From a virus: DNA of 26,899 nucleotides. How positions within the stretch are numbered: the stretch's first letter is position 1; the number at the start of each line of letters is the position of its first letter. Under the pieces are notes generated by a model. That model worked only from the letters and a program-made list of their open reading frames with translations. It was not told the origin of the DNA and did no database searches. The stretch is taken from the IMG/VR virus record IMGVR_UViG_3300032020_001002, positions 1-26,899 of that record. One strand, written 5' to 3'. The translations under genes were made by a program, and so were the position numbers. Below are positions 4,525 to 25,746 of the stretch, in pieces.

Positions 4525-6019
4525 TTTTGCAGTCGACACGGACGATTACAAGCGTGAGGGCCTACGGATTAGTATATTAGCGATGAGTGGCCACGGCAAG
4601 AGCAACGCCGCTGCTGATCTTGTTGAAGACGTCTTGGACAATCACGCGCAAGTAATCATTATCGAGCCTATTCCTGAATGGCACACTTTGAAGGCCAAGT
4701 ACAATAATGTCGTTGTTATCGGAGGGCCCTACCAGGATCTCCCGCTCGAGCCGGGTTTCGCGCATGAATATGTCCTAGCGGCCCTCGAGAAGGGCATTAG
4801 CCTTGTCGTAAATGTCAGTGATATTGAAGATGATGTGGAGCAGCTCCGCTTTGTCAGCAGTTTCTTGTGGAATCTTTATCGCCTCGAGCAGAAGTACCGG
4901 CGTGTTCTCTTCCTGGTCTTGGAGGAAGCGGATATCTGGGCTCCTCAAATGTGGGATCAAGTTAGCAAGCAAAGCCTCTCTCGAGTCAGTTTGATTGCTA
5001 AGCACGGCCGTAAAATCGGCATCTTCCCAATTCTAGTCAGCCAGCGGCCAGCGGATCTCCACAAGAGTCCATTAAGCCAGTGTAATATCAATCTCTTCGG
5101 CAAGTTCACAAGCCCCGCAGATCTGGACCCGAAGACGGGCCTCATGTTCTTGGTGAAAAAGCAGCACCTCGAGATCACTGAACAGCAGATTATGCAGTTG
5201 CCTACGGGCTCGTTTATAGTCGCGCATAAGGGCGGCGTCGACGCTGTTGCGGTACGCAAGCGGCTTTGTCCTCACGGAGCCGACACACCGTTGATTGAGC
5301 CTAAGCCTTTCACAGCTGACTTATCACGGGCCCTAGGAGGCCTCCAGGAAGCGATCGCTAAGGCTGTGGCCGCCAAAAAAGATGAAGAGTCAATAATAAA
5401 GCGCCTCGAGCGCCAGGTTCAGGATCTCAAAAAGCAGAATGAACAGCTCCAGGAGAAGGCGAACATTAAGCTTTCAGTGAAAGAAATAATGGAAGGTCCT
5501 TCTCAGGACCCGGGTTCAGATCCCGGCGGGTTAGCCAAACTGAAGGAAGCGAATGCGGGCCTCTTAGAGCAGTTAAAAAAACTAGATAGTGATAAGGCCC
5601 GTTTGGAGAAGGAGCTCGAGGCTTTTGTAAAGTTGAAAGAGGCCCTTGGAGAACTGTTGCCGGTGCGTAACGCACCAGAACTAGGTGTCATGACACCTAA
5701 TAGTTCAGTTGGTTTGCAACGTGTTCTTACCGTTGTGGATCTCGAGGAAATCGAGAAGCAACTTCCGAAGGAAAGGTCAGACACGGTTATAGGCAAAATT
5801 CTCACGTTAGCTAAGGAAGGGTTCTTTTCAAACTGGAAAAGTCTAAGCGAAGTGCAAGGTCGCATTGACGAGTTGGCATGGGGCCCTGTATCGCCGCAGG
5901 CTGTGACTGGCGCGCTTGGTGAGCTCACAAAAGATGGCGTTTTAGGGATGAGGCATACGGACCGTAACCGCTGGAAGCTGGCGCCGGATGTGGTTTTCGA
6001 AGGCAAAAAGGAGAGCTGA
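4502..6019 (+). CDS. HerA/VirB4-type ATPase with coiled coil and winged helix
   Basis: This 505-residue protein starts at TTG 4502 behind GGAGG. Residues 1-280 form a P-loop ATPase. Walker A is MSGHGKSN (28-35). Walker B is VLFLVLEEA (135-143) with tandem acids. SQRPADL (180-186) is the conserved Gln/Arg segment of the HerA-FtsK clade. Residues about 290-385 are a long coiled coil, interrupted by a Gly/Pro loop. Residues about 425-500 look like a winged helix (TVIGKILTLAKEGFF, VTGALGELTKDGVL). HerA-type enzymes are hexameric DNA translocases. The N-terminal HAS barrel of cellular HerA is largely missing. With the ParB-like gene nearby, I infer DNA partition, segregation or processing. Head packaging is less likely because a full terminase is present. 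Eight CTCGAG sites in this one gene are unusual. Confidence 0.8.
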   Translation: MKLRLSSDFAVDTDDYKREGLRISILAMSGHGKSNAAADLVEDVLDNHAQVIIIEPIPEWHTLKAKYNNVVVIGGPYQDLPLEPGFAHEYVLAALEKGISLVVNVSDIEDDVEQLRFVSSFLWNLYRLEQKYRRVLFLVLEEADIWAPQMWDQVSKQSLSRVSLIAKHGRKIGIFPILVSQRPADLHKSPLSQCNINLFGKFTSPADLDPKTGLMFLVKKQHLEITEQQIMQLPTGSFIVAHKGGVDAVAVRKRLCPHGADTPLIEPKPFTADLSRALGGLQEAIAKAVAAKKDEESIIKRLERQVQDLKKQNEQLQEKANIKLSVKEIMEGPSQDPGSDPGGLAKLKEANAGLLEQLKKLDSDKARLEKELEAFVKLKEALGELLPVRNAPELGVMTPNSSVGLQRVLTVVDLEEIEKQLPKERSDTVIGKILTLAKEGFFSNWKSLSEVQGRIDELAWGPVSPQAVTGALGELTKDGVLGMRHTDRNRWKLAPDVVFEGKKES

Positions 6020-6409: not shown

Positions 6410-7195
6410 ATGCCTATTCATTTCTTGGCTGCCGGTTATGTTGATCGTAAGACTCTCTTGAATCGCAGTAAGGTGGAGTGGACGGACTATAATTGTAACC
6501 ATTACTTTGGCTGCCGACATAACTGCAAATACTGTTATGCGAGAAGACTTTCACATAAGGACGAATCTGAGTGGATCCGAGTTTACGTTTGCAGGAACGC
6601 TCTTGAGCTAGCTGTGAGAGAGATCCGCGCTCTTCCTAGAGGTTCCAGGATAATGGTCAGCAGCATGACTGACCCGTACCAGTACATCGAAGAGGATGAG
6701 CAGGTTACTAGGATGCTTATTCCGGTCTTGGCTTCCAGACCTGATATCACTGTTATTTTGATCACGAAATCTGACCGTGTTAGAAGAGACTTCAACCTGA
6801 TCAGCGAGTTTCCGAACGTGCATTTATGCATGACCATTACGAGCCTTAAGGATCTGCCTGACCTGGAGCCTGACTCTCCAGGTAATATGAGACGGATTGA
6901 ATGTCTACGCGACGCCGATGCTCGTGGCATTTACACTATCGCAAGTATTGAGCCTTGGATTCCAAAGGTGACGAATCCTTGGCAGATTCTCCAGTTGATT
7001 CATCCTTTTGTAACGGAAGTTTTCATTGGAAGCTACAACTGGCATTATCGCCGCGGCTCGGAACCCGAAAAGGATGCTGTCTCTGAATACCGTGCGATCC
7101 TGCCTCATGTAACGAAGTTTCTTGAAGACCGTATGATAAAATATACAGTAAAGAAAGAGCTCCGAGAACTCGTAGACCGGCAACTCCTAACCTAG
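6410..7195 (+). CDS. Radical SAM protein (SPL/DUF5131-like)
   Basis: This 261-residue protein carries the C-x3-C-x2-C cluster motif CRHNCKYC (C35, C39, C42), which binds the [4Fe-4S] centre used to cleave S-adenosylmethionine. The lead-in KVEWTDYNCNHYFG resembles the start of phage Gp37/Gp68 (DUF5131) and spore-photoproduct-lyase-like proteins. Barrel strands follow: RIMVSSMTDPY (GxxxxDP-like), ITVILITKSD, VHLCMTITSL and YTIASIEPW. The chain is complete for a short barrel without an auxiliary cluster domain. The substrate cannot be read from sequence. DNA or RNA base modification or repair is a reasonable guess for a virus, and no obvious partner enzyme is adjacent. Confidence 0.75.
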   Translation: MPIHFLAAGYVDRKTLLNRSKVEWTDYNCNHYFGCRHNCKYCYARRLSHKDESEWIRVYVCRNALELAVREIRALPRGSRIMVSSMTDPYQYIEEDEQVTRMLIPVLASRPDITVILITKSDRVRRDFNLISEFPNVHLCMTITSLKDLPDLEPDSPGNMRRIECLRDADARGIYTIASIEPWIPKVTNPWQILQLIHPFVTEVFIGSYNWHYRRGSEPEKDAVSEYRAILPHVTKFLEDRMIKYTVKKELRELVDRQLLT

Positions 7196-9233: not shown

Positions 9234-9635
9234 TTGCGAGGTAAAAAGGGCTTTAAAATTGTAGTAGCCCGTCGAATTTCTCAGTTACGCCAAGCTCTTC
9301 GGACTGATACTGATCGGTTGCGGAGGAAAGCGATTGGGCGCTTGGAGGAATTGTTTGATCTTGCAAGTGATTTTGCGAAAGGAAGGATGAAATGGCAGAC
9401 AGACGGTTGCAAGGCCGTGCCTATCACGATTAAGCAGCGGCAGATGTGGGCTCGGATCGCTGCATATATTGCGCAGATCATGAACACGATTGCAAACGGG
9501 ATTGATGAACGCCAAATCGACAAGGACTTAACTGAGTTGGCAAGGCTTGTGAATGAAGCAAAGTCAAAAAGCCAAGCTACGGGAACTCCAGAAGAAGTTC
9601 GAAAGGAAGAAGGGGCTCCCGAGCCTTCCAAATGA
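9234..9635 (+). CDS. Putative terminase small subunit
   Basis: This 133-residue helical, basic protein begins at TTG 9234 (a GGCGGG stretch upstream is a weak SD). Helices include ARRISQLRQALRTDTDRL, AIGRLEELFDLASDFAKG and MWARIAAYIAQIMNTIA. The C-terminal end is charged and disordered. I assign it from its position: it lies directly before the large terminase and overlaps it by 83 bases, where small subunits almost always lie. The sequence itself has no HTH that I can name. Small subunits recognise viral DNA and load the motor. A generic helical DNA-binding protein cannot be excluded. Confidence 0.5.
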   Translation: MRGKKGFKIVVARRISQLRQALRTDTDRLRRKAIGRLEELFDLASDFAKGRMKWQTDGCKAVPITIKQRQMWARIAAYIAQIMNTIANGIDERQIDKDLTELARLVNEAKSKSQATGTPEEVRKEEGAPEPSK

Positions 9636-11010
9636 CAAGGTCCAATTTTTTGAAGAGATCCTGCATATCACGCCTTATCCTTATCAGAGTAGCTTCCTGA
9701 AAGATGCGGCTCCACTGAAAGTTCTGCGGTGGCCGCGGCGGGCCGGTAAGACGCTTATCATGTCTGGTGATGACCTCTACTCTGCTATGCGTTATCCCAA
9801 CTCGAAGATCATCATCACAATGCCCAAGCACCAGCAGATCAAGGAGATATACTTTGCAGCTTTCCATGAACATTTGGCACGGATTGATCGCAAGATCTAT
9901 GATGCTTATATTGAATGTGAGTTACAAACGATAATACGCACAACGAATGGATCGGTTCTTTTAGCTGAGACACCTGAGCCTTTCACGATCCGTGGTCACG
10001 GTCCTAGAAAGATAAGTATTGATGAAATGAATTTCATCCGCGAAGACGAAGATCTCTGGCTTAGCGCTTTGTTGCCGATGACTCTTACTCAGAGAGTAGA
10101 CATCAACGTTTCAAGTACGCCGTGGAACAAGAACAGTGTTTACTACAAGATGTGTTATGACAAGAGTTTCAAGATTTTCAGCGGTAACATCTATGAGAAG
10201 GATCCTCCGCGATACTTCCTGACTTGGAGAGAAGTTCAGAACCCAAATGGACCTTTAGACCCGCACCAAGTTGAAGTGATGAGAGAGCAATACGCTGGAG
10301 ACCCTTGGCGTTGGAAACGTGAAATGGAAAGCAGCTTCGTCGACGACGAAACTGCCTTTCTCCCGAGTAGCCTGCTAATCAAGTGTCAAAACGAAGAGCT
10401 CGAGTTCGCCAAGTTCGAGGATGCTCTTCAAGGAGACTTCTTTATAGGTTGGGATTTGGGGAGGGAGAGAGATCACAGTGCCGTTGCGATCGTCCAGAAG
10501 GATTCTGATATTGCCAGGCTTGTGCACTGCAAACAGTTTCCGCTCGGTACGCCCTATGTTACTGTGATGGCTTACATAAAATCGATTTGTGACAGATGGC
10601 GAATCATCAGAGCTCTATACTATGACCATACTGGTACGAAGGGAATGGATGAAGAAATAAGGAAAGTCGGTTTTCCCGGTCTAGTCGGCATCGACTTTAC
10701 TCAGAGCACCAAGCACAGTATGGCTATAGTTTTGAAGCAGGCGATGATGAGTAGCCGAGAAAGTGATAAAGCCCTCTCCGTTGAAGATGCGAGGAGACGG
10801 TTTGAATTACCTTTCGATCAGGACGTGCAAGCTGAACTCAATGTTGTGCAGTGGGAACAGTCGCCTGGAAGCGAGCTGTACACGTTCAGCCATCCTGAAG
10901 GGTCACATGACGATAGATTCTGGGCTATCGCCCTTGCTGTCTATGCTGCAGTTAAGCAGCCTGTCACGAGGGGCCTTGTTGATTTCGGCGCCGTTGGTGA
11001 AAGATCTTGA
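9553..11010 (+). CDS. terL: Terminase large subunit (packaging motor)
   Basis: This 485-residue protein has a full two-domain terminase. The ATPase has Walker A WPRRAGKT (60-67), Walker B ISIDE (154-158) and the coupling motif SST (187-189). The RNase-H-like nuclease has D301 in GWDLGRERDHS, D359 in YYDHTG and D453/D454 in GSHDDRF. It pumps DNA into the prohead and cuts it. ATG 9553 lies inside the preceding gene with AAGG seven bases upstream, and no other in-frame start is better. Its end overlaps the portal start by four bases. This is one of the firmest assignments in the window. Confidence 0.95.
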   Translation: MKQSQKAKLRELQKKFERKKGLPSLPNDKVQFFEEILHITPYPYQSSFLKDAAPLKVLRWPRRAGKTLIMSGDDLYSAMRYPNSKIIITMPKHQQIKEIYFAAFHEHLARIDRKIYDAYIECELQTIIRTTNGSVLLAETPEPFTIRGHGPRKISIDEMNFIREDEDLWLSALLPMTLTQRVDINVSSTPWNKNSVYYKMCYDKSFKIFSGNIYEKDPPRYFLTWREVQNPNGPLDPHQVEVMREQYAGDPWRWKREMESSFVDDETAFLPSSLLIKCQNEELEFAKFEDALQGDFFIGWDLGRERDHSAVAIVQKDSDIARLVHCKQFPLGTPYVTVMAYIKSICDRWRIIRALYYDHTGTKGMDEEIRKVGFPGLVGIDFTQSTKHSMAIVLKQAMMSSRESDKALSVEDARRRFELPFDQDVQAELNVVQWEQSPGSELYTFSHPEGSHDDRFWAIALAVYAAVKQPVTRGLVDFGAVGERS

Positions 11011-12389
11011 AGTGGCCTTGGAAAAAGAAACCTGAACCTGAGAAGCCTAAGCCTTTGGGGCTTGTTGCTGTTGAAGGGAAAACTAGCGGTGCTTACTTAG
11101 TCGCCAGCACAGAGTCCCAGGGCGTCGTATCCGAGTCGAGGATCCGGGGGAGACTTCACGCTGCTAAGCTCATTGAGGCAACTGTGAACCCGGCTACAGC
11201 TGTCAAAGTCTCTGTCAGCACAGTCAGCGGCGTCAAGTATCCTGATGATTTCAATGATTTTCAGGACTATCTCGATGCGTACTATTACATTCCGTACGTG
11301 GCTCGCGCGGTCGATATCAAACAGTTCATGATTTGGCAGATGGGCTACGATCTTGAATGTGAAGATGACAAGAGCAAGCAAGCAGTCACAGATCTGTTGA
11401 CTGAGATCGAAGCTGATACAGTTATCCGTGATGGCTGTCTCTTCGGGCTGATTTTTGGCAACATGTACTGGGAGCTGCAAGATGGCCCGAAGTTACGGGC
11501 TTTGAACCCGATGAAAATGGGCAAGAAAGTGGATTCGAAGCAGCAAGTGACTGAATATCGGTACGAACCTGAATTTGGGAACGTTGAGCACTTCAAGCCG
11601 GATCAGATTTTGGATCTCAAATTTAATAATGAGCCCTGGGCCCTTTTCGGCGTCGGTTGCTTGCGCAGGATTCTGCCAACTGTTAAGGCCTTGCTCTTCA
11701 TGGAGGAAAAGCTTCCGTGGATCGCTAGACGTCGGGCCGATCCGCTCTTGGCCGTACAGATAGGTAGCAAAGATAATGTTGTTGACAAGGATACTTTTGA
11801 CAGAACGAAGAATGGCATAATCAACCGCAAGCCTGGCGAAGACATCTTTCACGATGGAATCTTGGCGATTCAAGAGGTTTATCAGAGTGCGAGTGTTGGC
11901 GGTCGGCAGACGGTTGAGCCCATTCTTGCTCATTTCTCGCGTAACTTAGTTGCGGGCCTCGGCGTTCCTGAACCAGCTCTGGGCTTCGGCGGAACATCAA
12001 CAATGGCTACCGCGGAATACCAAGAAAGAATACTTGAGGCTGAGATTCATGCTTGCCAGAGGGCCCTAAAACGGCTTCATGAATCTGTGATCTTCCCGCT
12101 AGCTGAAACTTCGAAACCTGTGAAGCTTATTTGGCGGCCTCTGAAAGAAGAGGACAAAAAGGCTCTTAGCGAGGTGTTGCAGGGCGAGATTGAGCATGCT
12201 ATTGTTTCGCCTGACTGGGCTAGGCAGCGGCTTGGATATCCAGAGGATGCTGGGAAAGGCGTTGTGATCGATAGTCGCTTTGTGCCGACAGGTTTTGCAG
12301 AGTCAGCGGGTGAAGAGCGTAAGAAGCGGATGAAACTTTATGATAAGCTCGCAAAAGATCTCGATCGTAAAAACGGTTCTGCTTCTTGA
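11007..12389 (+). CDS. Portal protein
   Basis: This 460-residue protein starts at TTG 11007, overlapping the terminase stop. The sequence follows the portal plan: an N-terminal wing (YYYIPYVARAVDIKQFMIWQ), a beta-rich stem/crown lead-in (RALNPMKMGKKVD, TEYRYEPEFG, ILDLKFN), then the stem helix region and GLGVPEPALGFGG followed by TATAEYQERILEAEIHA, similar to phage portals of the SPP1/HK97 type. Twelve copies would form the ring at the capsid vertex through which DNA enters and leaves. Its place between the terminase and the head morphogenesis genes agrees. Confidence 0.9.
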   Translation: MKWPWKKKPEPEKPKPLGLVAVEGKTSGAYLVASTESQGVVSESRIRGRLHAAKLIEATVNPATAVKVSVSTVSGVKYPDDFNDFQDYLDAYYYIPYVARAVDIKQFMIWQMGYDLECEDDKSKQAVTDLLTEIEADTVIRDGCLFGLIFGNMYWELQDGPKLRALNPMKMGKKVDSKQQVTEYRYEPEFGNVEHFKPDQILDLKFNNEPWALFGVGCLRRILPTVKALLFMEEKLPWIARRRADPLLAVQIGSKDNVVDKDTFDRTKNGIINRKPGEDIFHDGILAIQEVYQSASVGGRQTVEPILAHFSRNLVAGLGVPEPALGFGGTSTMATAEYQERILEAEIHACQRALKRLHESVIFPLAETSKPVKLIWRPLKEEDKKALSEVLQGEIEHAIVSPDWARQRLGYPEDAGKGVVIDSRFVPTGFAESAGEERKKRMKLYDKLAKDLDRKNGSAS

Positions 12390-16867: not shown

Positions 16868-18316
16868 ATGCCTTCATTATACGAATACTACAACACGGGA
16901 GACGACTACACCTCTACAGCAATACATAGTATTTTTTGGTGGGCTCAAACATTCACCGTGGGAGCTGAGCCACACACAGTCACGTCTGTTAAGCTGAAAC
17001 TACTTCGTGCAGGTAATCCAGGCACGATTACTGTCAGCATTAGAGCCTCGGACGGTAGCGGTCATCCAACAGGCGGTGACTTGACAAGCGGTACGACAGA
17101 TGGGAATACGTTGCCTACTGGCTCACCCTATGAGTGGCGTGAAATCTCATTAACGGAATACGCGTTGCAGGCGAACACTAAATACGCGATCGTCGTCAGG
17201 GCTCTCAACGGAAACTCGTCTAACAGTTTGAAATGGCGTGCGGATTCCTCTGCACCAGCATATATTGATGGATGTTGCGAAACGAGCTCTGATAGTGGAA
17301 GCTCGTGGACGTCATACACTGGCCTTGACATGATGTTTGAAGTGTGGGGCAACGCAACAGGGGGACCTACTATGGTTTATGTCACAGATTCAATCACCTT
17401 GACCGACTCGAAACTCGTTGACAAAACTCTCTTGCTCGTGGCTGATGCTATCGGACTTACAGATTCACAACTTGTCAACAAAAACATCACAATTACCGAT
17501 CTGATCTCGCTCTTGGATGGGGTTCTCCGAAACAAATCAATAACCATTGAAGACGGAATAGGTTTAAGCGATGCTCTTCTCCGACATAAAACGCTCACAA
17601 TCACGGATACGATCACGCTTGACGACGTCGCCGAACTCGTCACGGGCATAGTAAAATATGTGACAGATTCCATCGGACTGACAGATCAAACTCTTGTCAA
17701 CAAGAACTTAATAGTTCAAGACGTCATTGCTGCGTTGGATGAAGTTTTCCGTCATCGACCACAAATATTGGTCTCAGACGCGATCACGCTTACCGAGGTT
17801 TTGACGCTTGGAAAACTCTGCAACATTGTTGATAGCATAAGCGTGTCAGACACAGTCTTGACTAACAAAAACCTCAACGTCACGGACACGATCGGACTGA
17901 CAGATTCAGACCTCGTAAACAAATCTTTAGTGATAACAGACGCGGTTTCGCTGTTAGATGCCATTCTACGCCATAAAACAGTGACTATCACCGACGCCGT
18001 GACATTAGCTGATGCTTTACTCACAGACAAACAGCTCCAAGTTCTAGACGCTGTAAGTCTCGCAGAGGCTCTTTCCCTCAACAAAACGATCCTAATTGCG
18101 GATAGCGTTTCTCTCTCCGAACAAGTACTGAGAAATAAAACCGTAGAAATCAACGACGTAATAGGCCTCTTGGACACGGCTGTTCTAGTTACCGCGTGGC
18201 CAAGCGCAGTTCTGGTTCTCAACCTTAAAACTCGTAAACTCCAAATCATCATCCGAGAGCGTGGACAAGAACTGCAGGTAGGTAAACGTAAGATGGAGCT
18301 CAAATTCAATGAGTAG
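16868..18316 (+). CDS. Repeat-rich fibre protein with N-terminal jelly-roll domain
   Basis: This 482-residue protein has three parts. Residues 1-165 look like a beta-sandwich of carbohydrate-binding or anchor type (AQTFTVG, VKLKLLRAGNPGTITVSIRA, YALQANTKYAIVVRA, MMFEVWGNA). Residues about 172-440 are some 15 repeats of 18 residues with the pattern (T)D-x-(I/V)-x-L-x-(D/E)-x-x-L-x-x-K-x-(L/V)-x-(I/V). The repeat Asp falls at 174, 193, 211, 229, 247, 267, 285, 304, 322, 340, 358, 376, 394, 412 and 430. The end is basic and strand-rich (LQIIIRERGQELQVGKRKM). This looks like a trimeric or solenoid shaft with a binding head. Its place among head genes suggests a head fibre, though a tail fibre is possible. 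Confidence 0.7.
   Translation: MPSLYEYYNTGDDYTSTAIHSIFWWAQTFTVGAEPHTVTSVKLKLLRAGNPGTITVSIRASDGSGHPTGGDLTSGTTDGNTLPTGSPYEWREISLTEYALQANTKYAIVVRALNGNSSNSLKWRADSSAPAYIDGCCETSSDSGSSWTSYTGLDMMFEVWGNATGGPTMVYVTDSITLTDSKLVDKTLLLVADAIGLTDSQLVNKNITITDLISLLDGVLRNKSITIEDGIGLSDALLRHKTLTITDTITLDDVAELVTGIVKYVTDSIGLTDQTLVNKNLIVQDVIAALDEVFRHRPQILVSDAITLTEVLTLGKLCNIVDSISVSDTVLTNKNLNVTDTIGLTDSDLVNKSLVITDAVSLLDAILRHKTVTITDAVTLADALLTDKQLQVLDAVSLAEALSLNKTILIADSVSLSEQVLRNKTVEINDVIGLLDTAVLVTAWPSAVLVLNLKTRKLQIIIRERGQELQVGKRKMELKFNE
17378..18190 (+). repeat. About fifteen imperfect 54-base repeats (18 codons each)
   Basis: The coding repeats of the fibre shaft run through this interval. Spacing between repeat Asp codons is 18 codons in most cases, with single units of 19 or 20. 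The DNA copies have diverged, so selection has kept the protein pattern, not the bases. Unit-number change between strains would be the expected mode of length variation. Confidence 0.75.
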
Positions 18317-20653: not shown

Positions 20654-21052
20654 ATGGTTAACACAGCACCTGTTCTAGGTCGCAATGGTAGCATCATCAT
20701 CAACAGCGTAGAAGCTGGCTACGTGAAAGGCTGCTCTTTTGATTTGGACGCGGATGTGATCAAGGACTACAAGTTTACAAGTGATAGGCCAGCGGTGCTT
20801 GAAAGTGGGAACAAGAGTTTCAAGTTCAGGTTTGACAAGATGTTCATTGACACAACCTATGCAGCTCTTGTTCTCGCTGGCACGAAGATAACGATACTTC
20901 TTAGCCCTGCAAACACTACGCCTACTGGCCAGCCGAAATATACGTTGTCAAACGCGATTATCTTCCATCACGGCTTCAGGGACGAGCAGGATGGCATTGT
21001 GATCGAGGACGGGTCGGGCGAAGCAGCAGACTTGTCGATCGGAACTTGGTAG
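20654..21052 (+). CDS. Major tail (tube) protein
   Basis: This 132-residue protein starts at ATG 20654 behind an AAGAGGTG stretch. It reads as a small tube protein: GRNGSIIINSVEAGYVKGCSF (the first strands with a turn), DADVIKDYKFTSDRPAVL, FKFRFDKMFIDTTYAALVLAG, TITLL-type strands and SNAIIFHHGF. It is short, without an Ig-like add-on. It is followed at once by the paired tail chaperone frames and the tape measure, the standard order. No sheath gene lies nearby, so a non-contractile tail is expected. Confidence 0.75.
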   Translation: MVNTAPVLGRNGSIIINSVEAGYVKGCSFDLDADVIKDYKFTSDRPAVLESGNKSFKFRFDKMFIDTTYAALVLAGTKITILLSPANTTPTGQPKYTLSNAIIFHHGFRDEQDGIVIEDGSGEAADLSIGTW

Positions 21053-21053
21053 T

Positions 21054-21452
21054 ATGTCTAAGACTCCCGCTGAAAAAGGAAGAGAACTCTTCGAGAAGGA
21101 AGAGAAAGAAGAGCGCAAAGCAGGAAAGAAGTTCAATCCGAAGCTTCTAGCGGCAGAGACAAGCAAGATTCACAAAGTCATCGATAAAGAAGAGGGTGAA
21201 ATTCTGTATTATCCGTTGCGAGTTGAAGATCTCGATGAGATAGATACAGGTACATCTAATCAAGAGCGGAGTCGTCTTATACTTTTCAAGAGTTTAAGCC
21301 GGGCCTATCCGGACCTCACCTGTGAGGAAGTCAAGAAGTGGCCACTGGTGAAAGCCACTAGGATCCTGCAGTTGATTGCGAAGGCTGAGGGTTTTTTGCA
21401 ACTTCAGACGACGTCCTTGCTTGGGTCAAAAAGAACGAAGACGCGCAGCTGA
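21054..21452 (+). CDS. Tail assembly chaperone, short form (gpG-like)
   Basis: This 132-residue frame starts at ATG 21054, two bases after the tail tube stop. It is acidic/basic and helical (KGRELFEKEEKEERKAGKKF; ERSRLILFKSLSRAYPDLT; VKATRILQLIAKAEG). Position and content match gpG-like chaperones, which coat the tape measure during tail assembly and are absent from the finished tail. The last 20 codons beyond the slippery site look unstructured and basic, as expected if the biologically important product is partly the shifted one. Confidence 0.75.
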   Translation: MSKTPAEKGRELFEKEEKEERKAGKKFNPKLLAAETSKIHKVIDKEEGEILYYPLRVEDLDEIDTGTSNQERSRLILFKSLSRAYPDLTCEEVKKWPLVKATRILQLIAKAEGFLQLQTTSLLGSKRTKTRS

Positions 21453-21580
21453 TCGGTCTTGTTGCTCACGAGTTCGGCTACACCCTTGAGTACATATTTT
21501 CGTTGTCGCCTTTTCAATTCAGCTTTCTCGTCGAATGGCTTGCCTGGTTCAACAGTGAGATCTCCAAGAGGAGAAGATAA
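21054..21580 (+). CDS. Tail assembly chaperone, frameshifted long form (gpG-T-like)
   Basis: A -1 shift at the slippery site gives a product of about 175 residues: the first 114 codons of the frame from 21054, then about 61 codons of the -1 frame ending at TAA 21578-21580. The added part (DDVLAWVKKNEDAQLIGLVA, EFGYTLEYIFSLSPF, FLVEWLAWFNSEISK) is a good protein-like helical sequence with no start codon of its own. The -1 frame opens only at 21389, directly after a TGA (21386-21388). The stop overlaps the tape measure ATG. This reproduces the lambda G/G-T arrangement. Confidence 0.8.
21389..21398 (+). promoter_or_regulatory. -1 ribosomal frameshift slippery site
   Basis: The bases are GGGTTTTTTG. 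In the zero frame the codons are GGT TTT TTG. Both G-GGT-TTT (21389-21395) and T-TTT-TTG (21392-21398) fit the X-XXY-YYZ rule for tandem tRNA slippage. The site lies immediately after the last stop of the -1 frame. I see no strong downstream stem-loop. Confidence 0.8.
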
Positions 21581-23049
21581 TGGTTGGCACTGACATTGAG
21601 GTAAATATCAAGGCGATCGATAACGCAAGCGCGACTATGCGTGACGTCGGTGTAAGCTCGAAAGATCTTGCCCTCGCATTTAACAACGTTGCAACAAGCG
21701 CCTTCGGCTACTACAATATGATCGACAACGTTCTCGACCGACAGGTATCTGTTGACAGAGCGAATCTTCAGGTCAAAAAAAGCCTACAAGGCGTGGATGA
21801 TGCTCAAGAAGCCTACAACAAAACCGTTGAAAAATTCGGCATCAACAGCGATCAAGCAAAAGATGCTCAAACCCGTCTGAACTTGGCAACGGAAACTTAC
21901 CAAGTGAATTGTGAACGGGCCGATATGCTTCAAGGGAATCTGAATGAAACCATTATGCGTAGCGCTCTTCAAGCGATCCCAACCACTATTACAGCGATCA
22001 GCTCCATTGCCATGATAACAACAAACTGGACCGCGGCCACACAAGGCGTCAGTTCCGCGTTACTTTTCCTTCAAGCGAACCCCTTGGTCCTTGTGGCTGT
22101 AGGGGTCGCGGCACTGGTTGCGGGCTTGATTTACCTTTATACCACATGTGAACCTGTTCGGAACGCTTTAAACACGATCGGATCCGTCCTCGGAGGGGCC
22201 GTGATGGCCGCTGTCAACGGGGTTATTCAAGCTGTGACATGGCTCTGGAACAATGTTCTAGTGCCTTTGGGTCAGTTTATCGTCGGTTCTTTTGTGGCTG
22301 CCTGGAACGGTATTTCAGGTTTCTGGAACGGCGTCGTTGTGCCCACAGTGAACGCGGTCCGTGAAGGTATCTCGTGGCTTTGGAACAATGTTCTGGCGCC
22401 CCTCGCAAACTTCCTTATTGGAACTTTCCTCCGCAACTGGCAGATGATGTGTGCCGGTATAGGATGGGCCTATGATAGTATTGTTAAGCCAATCCTTGAG
22501 GCTTTTGGCGGAGTTGTAACTTGGCTCGGAGAGAACGTTTTCGGTCCTGCAGTACGAGTGATGTCGGCGGTTTGGGAAGCCTTCTGTGGAGCGTTTGCAT
22601 GGTTCTACAATAACGTTGTCAAACCCGTGATCGATGCTATTGCCGCGGCTTTCGGCTGGATTTCCGGTATCTTCACTGAGGGTGAGGCCAGGCCTCCCGA
22701 AGAGGCAGGTGGGGCCCGTGAACGGATGCCTGAAGAAAGTTACAAGCCAAGCCCTGAAGAGCGAGAACCGGGTGGCCACTGGCAGCATGGAGCGATAATT
22801 ACTAGGCCGACTTTCGGTTTAGTCGGTGAAGGAGGACCCGAAGCGATCATTCCACTTAACAAATATGGGCTAGGGCCTTCTATTTCGGTCATGGGCCCTC
22901 TTGTGGTCGTTGAGGGTTCTGCTGATCGTGCGACTGCTGAGTATGCTGCTAGAATCGTTCTCGAGGGGTTAAAAACAGTGATTATAGAGCCGACAAGCGG
23001 GGGCGCCCTAGCAACTCAAAAACGCATTAGGCGTGGAGCTGTTCTCTAA
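21580..23049 (+). CDS. Tape measure protein
   Basis: This 489-residue protein starts at ATG 21580, overlapping the chaperone stop. The N-terminal 120 residues are helical and coiled (QVKKSLQGVDDAQEAYNKTV). Residues about 150-195 are strongly hydrophobic (ANPLVLVAVGVAALVAGLIY). Residues 215-370 carry Trp-rich near-repeats of the type WLWNNVL(V/A)PL, typical of tape measures. The C-terminal 90 residues hold a GxVGEGGPEAIIPL motif found at the end of many tape measures. It sets tail length and is ejected with DNA. At about 1.5 angstrom per residue the tail would be near 70 nm. Confidence 0.9.
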   Translation: MVGTDIEVNIKAIDNASATMRDVGVSSKDLALAFNNVATSAFGYYNMIDNVLDRQVSVDRANLQVKKSLQGVDDAQEAYNKTVEKFGINSDQAKDAQTRLNLATETYQVNCERADMLQGNLNETIMRSALQAIPTTITAISSIAMITTNWTAATQGVSSALLFLQANPLVLVAVGVAALVAGLIYLYTTCEPVRNALNTIGSVLGGAVMAAVNGVIQAVTWLWNNVLVPLGQFIVGSFVAAWNGISGFWNGVVVPTVNAVREGISWLWNNVLAPLANFLIGTFLRNWQMMCAGIGWAYDSIVKPILEAFGGVVTWLGENVFGPAVRVMSAVWEAFCGAFAWFYNNVVKPVIDAIAAAFGWISGIFTEGEARPPEEAGGARERMPEESYKPSPEEREPGGHWQHGAIITRPTFGLVGEGGPEAIIPLNKYGLGPSISVMGPLVVVEGSADRATAEYAARIVLEGLKTVIIEPTSGGALATQKRIRRGAVL

Positions 23050-24074
23050 TGGTTTTGCTGACTGAAACGGAAAGGTCAATACTTCTCGAGAAGAATCTGA
23101 TCAATGATCCGACACAATATTCAATTACAACTCAACCTAGCCTAGTGACGATTCATGATTACGGTAACATAACACTTGCTGAAGCAGGTCTTGTTATTTT
23201 CAAGTATACATTAAGGAAAGCGACAGGCAACGATGTTGACAAGTGTTATGCCCGTTTTGAAATCGGTGGAATACCAATTCACGGGGCAGAGATACATATT
23301 CTTAACACTGACTTCGTTTTTGGCGGGTTATGTTGGCTTGCCGCTGGAACCTATGATGTGTTAGTTAAGGGCTGCACACCAACAGGAGTCACTCTTTATC
23401 TTAAACAGTTTCAAATCGGCTTCGTCAAATTCAATGATTCTGTAGGGCATGCTTTAGCTGCATATTCAAGTGGGATCGCTAAGACTGTTCCAGCGCGCGC
23501 TACTCCTGCAGGTCCATTGAAACAAGCAGTTTATGCAGTGATGGTCGAAGCTTACACGGCCGGAGCTGTCACATATTTTGAAGATGCCGGAGAAACTTTG
23601 ACGAATGGTGTGGGCATCACGGTTGACGGTGTCCGCGTGAATTGGAGTACGAAACAGCACGATGTTGACGGCAAGCAGGCAGCTCACGGAAAATGCTTCT
23701 ATCCTGCTTCTACAGCGGAAAGTCACACGATCACCATTGTGAAGGAAAATGCGAGTACAACTGTCAACATCACGGTCTGTGCTTGCCCTTGGATCCTGGG
23801 AGGGCCCGTGCATAATCCAGTTGCGTTCTCGTTTTCTCAAGGGTCCACGGTTTACATGACGCTTGAACCCTTGTTCGTGGATGAGTCCAAGTTTGCTGGA
23901 GTCGGGAAAGTTCGGGGAGTAAGCTATGGCACAGCAACGGACTATTATGGTAGTTCTTCAGCGACAGGGATTATCGAATATAGTTATACATTCGAGACTG
24001 TGAATCAGGACATGGGTTTTGCGTGTTCAGGTGTCGGCGGCTGCATCACAAACGTCGGGGTCGATATGCGATGA
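23049..24074 (+). CDS. Distal tail structural protein of unknown type
   Basis: ATG 23049 shares a base with the tape measure stop. The 341-residue product is beta-rich with about eight cysteines. The N-terminal third reads SLVTIHDYGNITLAEAGLVI and LCWLAAGTYDVLVKGC, like a sandwich domain. The middle has GPLKQAVYAVMVEAYTAGAV and YFEDAGETLTNGVGITVDG. The C-terminal part is Gly/Ser/Cys-rich (GFACSGVGGCITNVGVDM). By gene order it should be a distal-tail, tail-tip or adhesin-related protein. No clear Dit or Tal motif is visible. Confidence 0.5.
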   Translation: MVLLTETERSILLEKNLINDPTQYSITTQPSLVTIHDYGNITLAEAGLVIFKYTLRKATGNDVDKCYARFEIGGIPIHGAEIHILNTDFVFGGLCWLAAGTYDVLVKGCTPTGVTLYLKQFQIGFVKFNDSVGHALAAYSSGIAKTVPARATPAGPLKQAVYAVMVEAYTAGAVTYFEDAGETLTNGVGITVDGVRVNWSTKQHDVDGKQAAHGKCFYPASTAESHTITIVKENASTTVNITVCACPWILGGPVHNPVAFSFSQGSTVYMTLEPLFVDESKFAGVGKVRGVSYGTATDYYGSSSATGIIEYSYTFETVNQDMGFACSGVGGCITNVGVDMR

Positions 24075-25302: not shown

Positions 25303-25746
25303 TTGAAGCGAAAAGGAGGTCGACAAAGTGACGAGAAAGATGAGATTTGGCAGGATGTAATTGTAGCGAATCCAAAGCATCTTAACAACCGGGTTAAACT
25401 TCACTTTCTCGTAGACACCGGTTCGTCTGGGTGCGCAATTCCTGTAGAAGTAGCTAAAAAACTCAAGTTAGAATGTGTTGGGGAAGGCGAAATAATACTT
25501 GCAAACGGCACGCGGATTCATGCGAAAATTGCCTATTTGTATATGAAAATCGATGACGAACATGTTTTCACGCTTGTGAGTTATGATGGATGTGAAAAAG
25601 CGTTACTTGGTTTCGATGTTATGCATCTCTTAGGGTTGCAGATTGATACGGGGAAAAAGGAGGTATTGAAACCAATGAGGCGTTTTAGCCTTAGAAATCT
25701 GATTTTTAGTAAAGGTTGGATTTCAAGTAGGAGAGGGAGACGGTGA
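25303..25746 (+). CDS. Retropepsin-like aspartic protease
   Basis: This 147-residue protein has one aspartic protease half: FLVDTGSSGCAIP (D38-T-G at 38-40) and, later, ALLGFDVMHLLGL (100-112), the second hallmark of clan AA peptidases. Strands between (EIILANGTRIHAKIAYLYM) complete the fold. As in retroviral enzymes, the active form would be a homodimer. The C terminus is a basic extension. TTG 25303 has AAGGTGA ten bases upstream. A stronger SD-like AAAAGGAGGT lies inside the frame (25311-25320) without a usable start after it, so the start deserves care. It stands just after the tail genes; virion maturation, processing of the membrane proteins or host-surface cleavage are possible. Confidence 0.75.
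   Translation: MKRKGGRQSDEKDEIWQDVIVANPKHLNNRVKLHFLVDTGSSGCAIPVEVAKKLKLECVGEGEIILANGTRIHAKIAYLYMKIDDEHVFTLVSYDGCEKALLGFDVMHLLGLQIDTGKKEVLKPMRRFSLRNLIFSKGWISSRRGRR

Follow-up and report, generated by a model that had tools for sequence, protein, structure and literature searches.

The slippery site of phage lambda is G-GGA-AAG. That tail chaperone genes of phages use frameshifting is classical knowledge, the gpG/gpGT pair of lambda being the described example (Xu, Hendrix and Duda 2004, as summarised in PMC5009743). In archaeal viruses, a -1 frameshift has been proposed for HVTV-1, HCTV-1, HCTV-2, and HCTV-5 (PMC8211752) and for Hardycor1, at the heptamer G-GGA-AAT (PMC7911831), and the HF1 group may use a +1 shift (PMC7230728); these haloarchaeal virus frameshifts have been graded as likely, not as demonstrated (PMC8211752, PMC7911831). 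The fucA1 gene of Saccharolobus (Sulfolobus) solfataricus undergoes a -1 shift at A-AAA-AAT, at about 10% in vitro (PMC8211752), and a 2021 review of archaeal recoding includes, besides a handful of viruses of halophiles, a single -1 case that had been studied by experiment (PMC8211752). Fuxivirus, Kunpengvirus, and the Bathyarchaeia proviruses, as presented in the main texts of PMC10848311 and PMC11705971, share their host class and virus class with the locus reported here. We found no mention of a chaperone or a frameshift in the main text of PMC10848311 on Bathyarchaeia viruses, and none of a frameshift in that of PMC11705971 on archaeal proviruses, where a tail assembly chaperone is listed in passing.

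Our study analysed a 26,899-base virus record (IMGVR_UViG_3300032020_001002, positions 1 to 26,899), hereafter the window, and identified in it what is very probably a programmed -1 ribosomal frameshift. It would affect the tail assembly chaperone gene of a tailed virus that infects Bathyarchaeia or related Thermoproteota. The -1 frameshift of tail chaperones is already known or proposed in phages and haloarchaeal viruses, and the loci described here would extend it, with strong comparative support, to another archaeal phylum. The likeness to HVTV-1, HCTV-1, HCTV-2, HCTV-5, and Hardycor1 lies in an archaeal host and a proposed -1 shift in the corresponding pair of genes, which precedes the tape measure gene; Hardycor1, however, belongs to a halophile and has G-GGA-AAT, whereas the loci described here have T-based sites and Thermoproteota hosts and show conservation across all 87. 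In contrast to lambda, to which no sequence homology was detected, the YYY triplet is always T. As in fucA1, a Thermoproteota ribosome would shift by -1 on a homopolymeric heptamer, here deduced from sequence, but fucA1 is a cellular enzyme gene with a proposed stem-loop and rare codons, and it is full length without a shift in most relatives. The relevant features of the window are as follows.

9553 to 11010, plus strand: terminase large subunit (genomic context).
11007 to 12389, plus strand: portal protein (genomic context; query for finding relatives).
20654 to 21052, plus strand: probable tail tube protein directly upstream of the pair; weak match to PF18906 Phage_tube_2 (E 0.015), syntenic in relatives.
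21054 to 21452, plus strand: zero-frame ORF, putative gpG-like tail assembly chaperone of 132 amino acids; weak Phage_TAC_7 matches in relatives and a 2OB9 fold match.
21389 to 21395, plus strand: first in-phase heptamer, G-GGT-TTT; sole heptamer in one clade of relatives.
21392 to 21398, plus strand: second in-phase heptamer, T-TTT-TTG, the conserved putative slippery site; TTTTTTN in 75 of 84 loci, with an invariant Phe.
21389 to 21580, plus strand: -1 frame, putative gpT-like extension contributing 60 residues after the shift; conserved domain with no initiation codon near its start.
21580 to 23049, plus strand: tail length tape measure protein directly downstream; PHROG tape-measure families, E down to 7.8e-16.

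The zero frame runs from the ATG at 21054 to the TGA at 21450-21452 (132 codons), and the -1 frame is closed by a TGA at 21386-21388 and open from 21389 to the TAA at 21578-21580, which overlaps the tape measure ATG at 21580 (TAATG). Immediately after the closing TGA, at 21389-21398, lies GGGTTTTTTG, read in the zero frame as GAG GGT TTT TTG CAA and containing two overlapping X-XXY-YYZ heptamers, G-GGT-TTT and T-TTT-TTG, both in phase with the zero frame. The original prediction had given these frame boundaries, the zero-frame stop, and a rule satisfied twice in the correct frame, and our re-reading of the sequence reproduced each of them exactly. Its fusion of about 175 residues also agrees with a shift at T-TTT-TTG, which would join 115 residues to 60 (175 in total); the slippage itself, its efficiency on archaeal ribosomes, and the roles of the proteins are what we infer. 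In the proposed mechanism, most ribosomes would read the zero frame and produce the 132-residue gpG-like protein, and a minority would slip back by one base, with their P-site and A-site tRNAs on T-TTT-TTG or G-GGT-TTT, to produce a 175-residue gpGT-like fusion. If the lambda pair is a guide, the G part would bind to the tape measure protein, with the extension serving to recruit tail tube subunits.

The window encodes terminase, portal, capsid, head-tail connector, and tape measure proteins, and two small overlapping ORFs occupy the interval between the tape measure gene and the tail tube gene, the latter a weak but syntenic call (E 0.015). This order of tube, overlapping pair, and tape measure is the arrangement of a tail assembly chaperone cassette. 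Pfam and PHROG scans of the window's own proteins returned no chaperone family, and no useful match came from profile searching among solved structures; two relatives match Phage_TAC_7 at 18.1 and 21.6 bits, with a curated cut-off of 25. The G protein alone was modelled with AlphaFold at moderate confidence (pLDDT 72). A fold search of this model against the PDB had a best E of 0.72, with the HK97 tail assembly chaperone 2OB9 second at a weak E of 1.0; in a viral library the best E was 5e-3, and tail assembly chaperones accounted for several of the named matches, at weak E values of 0.02 to 0.3, the halophage ChaoS9 protein among them. Synteny together with these weak profile and fold matches suggests that the upstream protein is a tail assembly chaperone, and the matches are supportive rather than proof.

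As a single query, the fusion protein had no match in viral contigs or phage records. Relatives were found instead through the portal protein (29 viral contigs) and through an alignment of the extension (76 loci). The extension profile was then searched in all reading frames, blind to the slippery site, which gave 72 distinct viral loci including the window; 12 further loci were found in the class Bathyarchaeia, in 6 of 257 genomes, and a wider phylum search added three genomes outside the Bathyarchaeia class list with one locus each, two of them identical in the region. The complete set thus comprises 87 loci (the window, 71 other viral contigs, 12 Bathyarchaeia proviral loci, and 3 from other Thermoproteota), and 52 remain after the removal of near-copies. 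An archaeal host, as originally claimed, is supported because homologous proviruses sit in Bathyarchaeia genomes, and it is through its relationship to them that the window would be assigned to an archaeal virus. A portal relative with 60% identity is present in a Bathyarchaeota MAG, and a single contig of 2,202,057 bases (G053:C1) contains two homologous proviral tail modules. Its 16S gene is archaeal (1511 bits, best in its clan), and the module flanks are housekeeping-like, with proteins resembling carbamoyl phosphate synthase and PEP carboxylase as read by eye from their N-termini. The similar proviral head-tail modules of this contig, at about 783-802 kb and 1357-1375 kb (L127-L131), both carry the terminase after the tail genes.

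The strongest evidence comes from the conservation of the arrangement. In every one of the 87 loci, a long ORF precedes the extension, which is in the -1 frame relative to it. The overlap of the two, 22 to 199 bases long and bounded on either side by a real stop codon, contains an in-frame X-XXY-YYZ heptamer. Dinucleotide shuffling of each overlap predicts such a heptamer in 7.0 of the 52 non-redundant loci, and it is observed in all 52; for the window alone, 11.5% of the shuffles contain one. The -1 geometry and heptamer in 87 of 87 loci, set against about 7 of 52 by shuffling, support programmed -1 frameshifting. It should be considered that the locus counts are non-independent through shared ancestry, although the upstream proteins diverge to about 20% identity. 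The first 84 loci carry TTTTTTN (75), GGGTTTT (7), CCCTTTT (1), or AAATTTT (1), and the three loci from other Thermoproteota carry C-CCT-TTC or A-AAT-TTC, with the YYY side always T-based in sites that range from T6-T7 runs to T3-T4 only. At the codon level, NNT-TTT is present at the site in 52 of 52 representatives, whereas Phe elsewhere in the same genes is encoded by TTC 112 times versus TTT 77 times and other codons end in T in only 20% of cases. The slippery site is therefore kept without synonymous change across these divergent homologues, and the one residue of the upstream protein that never varies in the 52-row alignment is F114, for which the site's TTT codon codes. The extension is itself a conserved protein domain, with Q20, Q43, and L47 invariant. 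The original prediction had named homologues that lose the slippery bases while keeping both frames as evidence against it, and there are none among the 87. Loci L111 and L114 (G001:C23) represent a provirus in Bathyarchaeota PFL2 in which A-AAT-TTT replaces the T6 site with the -1 geometry unchanged.

In-frame heptamers occur elsewhere in the window's genes 12 times in about 6,850 codons, or about 1 per 570 codons. Among these, a second in-frame GGGTTTT is located at 24014-24020, close to where a distal tail gene ends, and its -1 frame is open into the next ORF. We rejected it as a second frameshift site, given that relatives do not conserve it, so that it is probably due to chance; since conservation is missing despite the open -1 frame, it serves as an internal negative control.

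Two overlapping heptamers, as in the window, arise where a homopolymer triplet precedes the T run, which is the case in 12 of 48 T6 representatives (the window and 11 others). GGGTTTT is the sole heptamer in a clade of seven viruses (L043, L049, L051, L053, L055, L105, and L106), which in a tree of fusion proteins form one group with a support of 87/89, sister to viruses with GGGTTTTTTA and nested in the larger set with T6 sites. This is most simply explained by inheritance of the double site and a later loss of its T6 part. The sister position of the GGGTTTT-only clade to viruses with a double heptamer makes it probable that both heptamers work, and the heptamers replace one another over evolution. 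On this tree the window may use either heptamer, and a tuning of efficiency by the pair, as originally suggested, is a conjecture that goes beyond it. With mammalian ribosomes, G-GGU-UUU is among the most shift-prone heptamers, and U-UUU-UUA is the HIV site (PMC5009743).

Other explanations of the fused frame were weighed against the programmed frameshift. The one that survives best, although we consider it very unlikely, is transcriptional slippage, in which RNA polymerase would add a base at the T6-T7 run and a share of the mRNAs would carry the fused frame. Runs of six or seven T at most sites are compatible with it, but the bacterial runs cited for such slippage consist of 9 A or T (PMC5009743), and the sites with only T4 or T3 (GGGTTTT, CCCTTTT, AAATTTT, CCCTTTC, and AAATTTC) keep the -1 fusion geometry. 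In these short-T sites, moreover, a homopolymer triplet always comes before the T's, as expected for tandem tRNA slippage but not for slippage by the polymerase, which is therefore unlikely. Even less probable is that the pair represents two independent genes, with the downstream frame translated from its own start and coupled by termination and reinitiation. Many tail genes of the window are closely packed, and beyond this nothing speaks specifically for such coupling. The -1 frame of the window has no ATG, GTG, or TTG near its start; in 81 of 84 loci, the stretch of the downstream frame between its opening and the 11th codon after the site is free of ATG and GTG, and none of the 84 has either codon at the site itself. 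In 18 loci the -1 frame opens just 3 bases upstream of the heptamer. A separate start, which the original prediction had also named as evidence against a shift, is thus excluded in practice in the window and nearly all relatives, and under independent translation the conservation of the heptamer would be needless. Finally, a chance heptamer, or a sequencing or assembly error that splits one gene, is hardly credible: homopolymers are error prone and chance heptamers do occur at the rate given above, but many assemblies contributed to the 87 loci, all of which show the identical -1 break in the same position, even where there is no T6 run, and between real stops at each end of overlaps of 22 to 199 bases.

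Programmed -1 frameshifting, by tandem slippage of the P-site and A-site tRNAs, remains our preferred reading. A stimulatory element, which commonly accompanies such sites but is not indispensable, did not emerge, and this speaks against the reading. In the 60 bases downstream of the site, RNA structure in the 52 loci, pseudoknots aside, was unremarkable, with a mean z of 0.18 and 0 of 52 below -2. An internal Shine-Dalgarno signal is weak at best, the upstream pairing with the anti-SD in the 52 loci being little above that of control windows. We consider it somewhat more probable than not that, in tailed viruses of Bathyarchaeia and other Thermoproteota, tail chaperone synthesis depends on a -1 shift at heptamers with an invariable U in the YYY triplet, that no recognisable stimulator is involved, and that overlapping double heptamers act as evolutionary bridges between slippery sites. 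If this is true, these loci would surpass in breadth every other conserved frameshifting set reported from archaea in the literature compared here. Archaeal recoding rests on few cases, to which the 87 loci add conserved and directly testable -1 sites, with natural variants on offer (TTTTTTN, GGGTTTT, CCCTTTT, AAATTTT, CCCTTTC, and AAATTTC). They also suggest an annotation rule for archaeal tailed viruses, namely to fuse two ORFs that would otherwise be called separate or missed.

Other ORFs of the window were also recorded. The ORF at 25303-25746 encodes a retropepsin-like aspartyl protease domain with a DTGSS motif (PF13975, E 7.8e-9) in what would be an archaeal tailed virus, and a relative is present in another locus (L030, at 4718-5071). 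Between the capsid and head-tail connector genes, the ORF at 16868-18316 contains many copies of a motif of about 20 residues of the type VxDxIxLxDxxLxNKxL, and a relative of this repeat protein was found in locus L025. The ORF at 6410-7195 encodes a Radical SAM / DUF5131 protein (PF07505, E 1e-9; PF04055, E 1.8e-8).
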